Of a stretch of 64,000 nt of DNA, positions 13,286 through 61,303 are shown piece after piece. Positions within the stretch are counted from its first letter, which is position 1. The number at the start of each line of letters is the position of its first letter. Source of the stretch: Chthonomonadales bacterium (GTDB lineage Bacteria > Armatimonadota > Chthonomonadetes > Chthonomonadales > CAJBBX01); contig DAIDHP010000002.1 of assembly GCA_027459625.1 (NCBI GenBank), positions 62,001 through 126,000 of the forward strand, given 5' to 3'. Below the pieces are notes generated by a model. The model was given only the letters and a program-made list of their open reading frames with translations, ran no database searches and was not told the origin of the DNA. The position numbers and the translations under genes are program-made.

Positions 13286-13480
13286 AATCAAATCCTCTTT
13301 CTATGGGTGATTGCAACGCTGATGAAAACTCGCTGACACTTTTGGTCGAGCATCATGCGTAAATCCATTTATCGTCACTTGCGTAATCGGCGAAGTGTAG
13401 CGAATATCGCATGTTTCACGCTTGGTAATAATCCGAAAGCGAATGTTGCAATCGTCTGACCTATTGAAATCATTTTTCTA

Positions 13481-14331: not shown

Positions 14332-14416
14332 AAGTAAGTGCGAAATTCGATTTTCGTTGCTTTATCAACTGTAAGACGCGTGATAACAACCGCCTTTTTC
14401 GAATTTCACACTTACC
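14332..14416. repeat. Nested inverted-repeat element, copy 1
   Basis: The outer arms GTAAGTGCGAAATTCGA (14334-14350) and TCGAATTTCACACTTAC (14399-14415) pair at 16 of 17 positions. Inside, GTTG plus TTATCA (14356-14367) pairs with TGATAA plus CAAC (14381-14390), leaving a two-base bulge. The left end and right flank (ACCTCT) match the copy at 61044-61130; over the 24 bases from 14332, 20 match. A CTCTCTTTTTTT run follows here, so this copy may also terminate the nifX-like transcript. Confidence 0.65.
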
Positions 14417-14525
14417 TCTCTTTTTTTGATACCGGCGCTTAGGCGATAACTCTCTTCATACAGCCCCGATAAGTGGTAGAATAACGCAAAATCACAACGG
14501 AACTTGTTTGCGGTACGGGGGGAGT

Positions 14526-59092: not shown

Positions 59093-59531
59093 CCTGTCTT
59101 CTCCATTCCGAAAGGGAAATCCGCCAACGGTGCGGAATGACTCTATTCTACCCAACCGTTTTCCCAAACCCCAATTCGTCTGTTTGCGCATCAAAGCAAG
59201 CGGTGGGTGGGGGAGAGGATATTTGGATCGGATTGGCTCATGTGATTTGTGGGGGATGGGGAGGAGGAAAGATCATCCTGTCATCTATTATGCACCCCCT
59301 ATAACCTAACTCACGATCAATTGAACTTCCTCTTTGTCCCTTTCCACAATATTCACTGGATATGTCGTGTTCCTTGAATAGGGAGTCGGGATGCGTCGCA
59401 GCGAAGAAACATGGGTTGCGTATTCAGGAATGTCATGAATGAAGCGCGAAGGATGTGTGATGAATAAGTGGCTAGGGGGAGAGTGACCGAGAGGGCAAAT
59501 GGTATGCTTGAGGAGGCTATTCATGAGGGGG
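59093..59531. other. Intergenic region between divergent pectate lyase-like and GHL15-like genes
   Basis: About 440 bases without a recognised gene. Both promoters should lie here, but no convincing -35/-10 pair was found. Confidence 0.4.
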
Positions 59532-59609
59532 ACCTGTATGCGTGGGGGGGAACCCGTATGCGTGGGGGAAACCCGTATGCGTGGGGGAAACCCGTATGCG
59601 TGGGGGGGG
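59532..59609. repeat. G-rich tandem repeat of 19-20 bases
   Basis: Four units of acccgtatgcgtgggggaa (19-20 bases, with G tracts of 5 to 8 bases) stand in a row, followed by a partial fifth and a short palindrome (GCTCGCTTCGCTCGC, 59614-59628). The repeat is upstream of the GHL15-like start at 59696. Slippage and G-quadruplex formation are plausible. Confidence 0.8.
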
Positions 59610-59695
59610 ACCCGCTCGCTTCGCTCGCGGCTCGGATTTGGATGGTGGTATTATTTCATGAGAACGACATATACGCTTCGGGGAGGGGTGAGTTT

Positions 59696-60985: not shown

Positions 60986-61043
60986 GCCGATAAGTCGGAT
61001 TGGGTGCGCTTTCATCCTTGAAAACTTTTTGATCTGGATGGTC

Positions 61044-61130
61044 AGGTAATTGCAAAATTCGCTTTTCAGGTATTTCGCCGAGCATGAAATGAGCGATATT
61101 AGCCTCATTTTCTGAATTTTGCAATTACCT
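61044..61130. repeat. Nested inverted-repeat element, copy 2
   Basis: AGGTAATTGCAAAATTC (61044-61060) and its exact complement GAATTTTGCAATTACCT (61114-61130) are outer arms of 17 bases without a mismatch. Inside, AAATGAG (61087-61093) pairs with CTCATTT (61104-61110) over a 10-base loop. The left end (then G-[CA]-TTTTC) and the right flank (ACCTCT) match copy 1 at 14332-14416, though the inner sequences differ. Confidence 0.7.
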
Positions 61131-61303
61131 CTGGTGAATATTTGTGAACAACAACGCTGGAATATAGTCAAAAAAGACAGTATGTTCGATCGCGTTTTCC
61201 ATTTCCACCCCTGAAATGGTGTCACTGGATATCCTTTATCGAATGCAAAAGGTGATCTCGCCCCATATTTAATCGTAGTGTATGGATCGGATAATATATA
61301 AAC

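Follow-up and report, generated by a model that had tools for sequence, protein, structure and literature searches.

A high-copy palindrome in a Chthonomonadales genome is very probably a miniature inverted-repeat transposable element with an IS1182-like partner

Introduction

REP/BIME palindromes are associated with a Y1 transposase, and REPs are not known to make a target-site duplication (TSD). Miniature inverted-repeat transposable elements (MITEs) of ISMac2, a member of the IS1182 family, were described in Methanosarcina acetivorans with lengths of 160-169 bp and 7-14 copies (PMC3852290, Table 4); one of these families, present in 14 copies, combines long inverted repeats with direct repeats of 4 bp (PMC3852290). 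IS5-group ends of the GAG...TTGCA type are carried by MITEPgRS/MITE464 and BrickBuilt of Porphyromonas gingivalis, and in Neisseria the ATR MITEs have the ISNme1 ends GAGACCTTTGCAAAA (PMC4596501).

The palindrome analysed here lies near the end of the window, by which the whole 64,000-nucleotide stretch of DNA is meant. It is read as a non-autonomous MITE moved by an IS1182-like DDE transposase, with a probability of about 95%. A sequence-only reading had offered a short MITE, a REP-like palindrome or a structured RNA with a terminator or processing role as its possible nature; TSDs, transposase-bearing elements with the ends of the MITE, and empty sites favour the first. The palindrome illustrates well a type of element that is already known, and is neither a new RNA nor a new class of repeat.

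The element in the window

The 17-base arms AGGTAATTGCAAAATTC were located at 61044-61060 on the plus strand and at 61114-61130 on the minus strand with no mismatch, in agreement with the perfect arms described from the sequence alone. The element extends one base further on each side than the 61044-61130 originally noted, occupying 61043-61131 on the minus strand, where C-87-C of the plus strand reads G-AGGTAATTG...CAATTACCT-G. It is thus a short element of 89 bp with 17-bp terminal inverted repeats and no coding capacity, as in a MITE. The suggested search for flanking duplications revealed a perfect 4-bp repeat, TGGT, at 61039-61042 and, as an exact right copy whose offset agrees with that seen in other copies, at 61132-61135. 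The central 87 bp are identical in five other full-length copies. The element sits between a GHL15 glycosyl-hydrolase gene (end 60985) and a sulfotransferase gene (start 61304). A short tandem repeat, TATGCGTGGGGGAAACCCG, with a unit of about 19-20 bp, was observed at 59518-59614, where the GHL15 glycosyl-hydrolase ORF begins; its true start is probably downstream of this repeat.

Allowing three mismatches, five arm matches were found in the window as compared with 0.28 expected. An older copy (copy 1) is located at 14332-14417 on the minus strand, with arms AAGTAAGTGCGAAATTC and AGGTAAGTGTGAAATTC that differ from one another by two mismatches and from the consensus by six in all; its TSD is not recognisable. 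The ends of the two copies are related, but the statement that they are shared was generous in view of the six mismatches. The T-run CTCTCTTTTTTTG directly follows copy 1 on the plus strand (14418-14430), so that the place where this copy happened to insert could allow its hairpin to serve as a terminator. A possible third copy, weak and heavily decayed, was found at 13393-13457 on the plus strand, where a profile match extends to 13452 (13393-13452, E 1.4e-5 in 1.25 Mb) and a remnant of the right arm ends at 13457.

Copy number and genomic placement

The genome to which the window belongs (G000) comprises 4.55 Mb in 114 contigs. With up to three mismatches, 338 arm-like sites were identified in it, compared with eight for a reversed-pattern control. 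A DNA search with the 87-bp consensus gave 40 places at E <= 0.01, six of which, including the window copy, were identical over the full 87 bp. Paired copies numbered 129 against none in the reversed control, in a survey of 1.8 Mb (about 40% of the genome) made up of stretches selected partly for holding arms; their commonest length was 87 bp. The palindrome had been described as a dispersed element, and multiple dispersed copies, as in a MITE family, are indeed present. A scan of viral contigs for paired arms gave none.

Based on crude, ORF-based gene calls, 117 of the 129 copies fall outside long ORFs, as against 13% of random positions. The simplest reading is that the intergenic survival of copies results mainly from selection removing insertions into genes. 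The family identified here is the repeat that fills many intergenic gaps of this lineage, and it accounts for the recurring palindromes.

Target-site duplications and empty sites

When the copies were oriented alike, one extra base was seen on each side (usually G...G), with a direct repeat of 4 bp beyond it. In the first young set, an exact 4-bp TSD at that offset and length was present in 12 of 22 copies (22/256 expected). Ranking the 129 paired copies by rising arm divergence gave exact duplications in 9/16, 12/20, 6/20, 1/30 and 2/43, and overall in 21 of 36 young copies versus three of 73 old ones, with a chance level of 1/256. The duplications, fixed at 4 bp across the family, fade with the age of the copy.

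A sister genome of the same genus, the bin MAS4.bin79 (JAJZOL01; G001), was compared with G000; their syntenic DNA is about 90% identical, with most stretches at about 84-94%. Among 35 copies of the sister genome, 23 carry the exact 4-bp repeat. At least four orthologous loci have the element and its TSD in the sister genome versus an uninterrupted site in G000: L195 (TSD TATA), L202 (CTTA), L206 (AATA) and L183 (TTTC). At these four loci the two genomes differ by the element together with a single TSD copy, allowing for one-base differences in the flanking DNA. Locus L197 has an imperfect duplication, and L184 and a second site in L202 are strongly diverged between the two genomes. The window locus is not among the precise empty sites: a counterpart was sought in the sister genome in searches run without a positive control and none was found, so the empty site of the window copy itself was not seen.

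The partner insertion sequence

Potential partners were sought among arms without a nearby partner arm. As had been proposed for a MITE, full-length transposons with the same ends exist. Two elements bounded by AGGTAATTGCAAAAT were identified in G000: one of 1425 bp with a decayed DDE transposase (C7:66967-68391), and an internally deleted relative, 983 bp long (C27:53169-54151). Both carry DDE transposase fragments with stops and frame changes, and a third transposase fragment is present on contig C3. In the sister genome a nearly intact 1396-bp insertion sequence (IS) was found (C211:39-1434), with a nearly open frame of approximately 370 codons that contains a single in-frame TAG. G000 yielded no intact transposase, and no clear TSD was found for the IS copies themselves. 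The MITE family looks stranded in G000, since all partner copies found there are broken.

The transposase proteins of the sister genome and of G055 matched Pfam DDE_Tnp_1 and DUF772 above cut-off. With the NCBIfam models the transposase scored 76-90 bits for IS1182 (cut-off 270) and 64-77 bits for IS5_4 (cut-off 140), below both cut-offs. Annotated IS1182-family transposases of plasmids share 40-44% identity with the G055 homolog, and two such plasmid elements have the ends GAGCCTCTTGCAAAA and GAGGCTCTTGC with 4-bp TSDs, ATGA and TGGT. The homology of its transposase, together with GAGG...TTGCAAAA ends and a TSD of 4 bp, places the partner among the IS1182-like elements of the IS5/IS1182 group; the GAGGTAATTGCAAAA ends together with the 4-bp duplication fit the plasmid IS1182-family group.

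Among 61 genomes, the window's own and 60 relatives, the arms are abundant in only three (G000, G001 and G017). The transposase is present in all three and in just four of the other 58. One of the three, G017, has its own elements of 176-262 bp with the ends of this MITE family, one of them with an exact TATA duplication.

In the proposed mechanism, the 1.4-kb IS with GAGGTAATTGCAAAA ends encodes a DDE transposase that belongs to the IS1182-like branch of the IS5/IS1182 group; this enzyme would recognise the terminal repeats of the MITE in trans, and the 89-bp element would move into new sites with 4 bp of target duplicated each time. The IS1182-like partner transposase is probably the one that moved the MITE. 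An origin of the MITE by internal deletion of the IS was considered and is unsupported, because beyond the terminal 15-17 bp its interior showed marginal similarity to the IS (best p of about 0.007 among ten comparisons). A second DUF772 transposase of G000 (C19:9106-9312, locus L243) was rejected as the partner because its frame is broken and its ends differ (candidate GAGCCTGTCCG). Recoding in the transposase relatives was likewise discarded; the apparently shared in-frame stops were at different sites or had been counted from an X in the query.

Related ends were also observed outside the genus. A genome bin labelled Chlamydiae contains an 80-bp near-perfect hairpin (L198:2827-2906, JABDFI010000019.1) with identical 17-base ends, an unrelated, GC-richer interior and flanks GCTA/ACTA that almost form a 4-bp duplication. 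Single elements with the related ends AGGTAATTGCAAAAGTC, different interiors and 4-bp duplications (ACTA and ATAT) were found in further genera of the order to which G000 belongs (G026 L139 and G025 L157, from 1501). A broader and rather doubtful reading is that the family belongs to a hyper-amplified lineage of IS1182-type MITEs with ends common across phyla, the Chlamydiae bin included; this would suggest that the ends or their transposase cross phyla and that, on the same ends, MITEs with new interiors arise again and again.

Hairpin formation and alternative explanations

A structured RNA or terminator element, with the hairpin under selection, was considered as a rival reading. Folding was compared with shuffled sequence, as the sequence-only reading had recommended, and both copies beat the shuffles on both strands (z -3.6 / -4.6 for the window copy and -4.4 / -5.8 for copy 1); this is expected for any long inverted repeat. 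The inner AAATGAG/CTCATTT stem described earlier appears in the minimum-energy fold of the plus strand, but on the minus strand the predicted interior differs. The intergenic placement of the copies and the T-run that happens to come after copy 1 also agree with an RNA; no T-run follows the window copy, and an Rfam scan of the window at the gathering threshold gave no match at the element, only a tRNA elsewhere. If an RNA hairpin were under selection, a change in one arm would be expected to have its counterpart in the opposite arm. Arm-to-arm mismatches averaged 1.60 within the same copy versus 1.52 between unrelated copies in young copies, and 3.25 versus 3.16 in middle-aged ones. In these two groups pairing is not maintained, as a copy's own arms differ as much as unrelated arms do. 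Selection on an RNA hairpin is therefore not supported, given the independent decay of the arms, the missing T-run and the missing Rfam match, and the single-strand fold is taken to be a mere by-product of the inverted repeats. Since the TSDs and empty sites show transposition, and the ends are those of a DDE transposase element, the structured terminator or processing RNA is very improbable.

The oldest copies had 5.93 arm-to-arm mismatches versus 6.80 for shuffled partners (sd 0.18). This slight deficit, along with the retention of old copies between genes, might indicate a MITE that at some loci has a putative secondary role towards adjacent genes, as an insulator or a weak terminator. Such a role seems improbable, if less so than an RNA under selection; the modest excess of pairing in the older groups can be explained by subfamilies of greater age that carry distinct arms, such as AGGTGATTGC. 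A REP/BIME palindrome, dispersed by a Y1 transposase (RAYT, IS200/IS605-like), would likewise be intergenic and of high copy number, but this reading is refuted by the exact 4-bp TSDs and disfavoured by partner elements in which true terminal inverted repeats accompany a DDE transposase; its probability is negligible. The reading as a MITE with an IS1182-like partner is retained. It represents an unusually clean bacterial case, with young and old copies, decay of the TSDs, empty sites and a dying helper within one genus.

Comparison with known systems

Like the ISMac2 MITEs of Methanosarcina, the present family is short, non-coding and tied to an IS1182-type IS, and, like one family among them, it is flanked by 4-bp repeats; it differs in its length of 89 bp, its well over 100 copies and its host, and the two are likened by description, not by sequence. 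The partner resembles the plasmid element ISUnCu17 and its IS1182-like relatives in its GAG....TTGCAAAA ends and 4-bp TSD, and in the 40-44% identity of the G055 homolog. Unlike the partner in G000, ISUnCu17 and its relatives are full insertion sequences with an intact gene, and between GAG and TTGC their bases are not those of GAGGTAATTGCAAAA. The MITEs of P. gingivalis and Neisseria also have IS5-group ends of the GAG...TTGCA type, and BrickBuilt is likewise intergenic, but BrickBuilt and MITE464 are longer, with internal tandem repeats and a different interior, and the TSD lengths of BrickBuilt vary whereas that of the present MITE is 4 bp. REP/BIME palindromes are, like this family, intergenic and of high copy number; a DDE-transposase partner and a TSD set the present family apart. 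A full-text literature search for the end sequence returned unrelated papers only. MITEs that are linked to IS1182 elements and bear 4-bp repeats had been described before, and the present family is an addition to this kind that is notable for its copy number.
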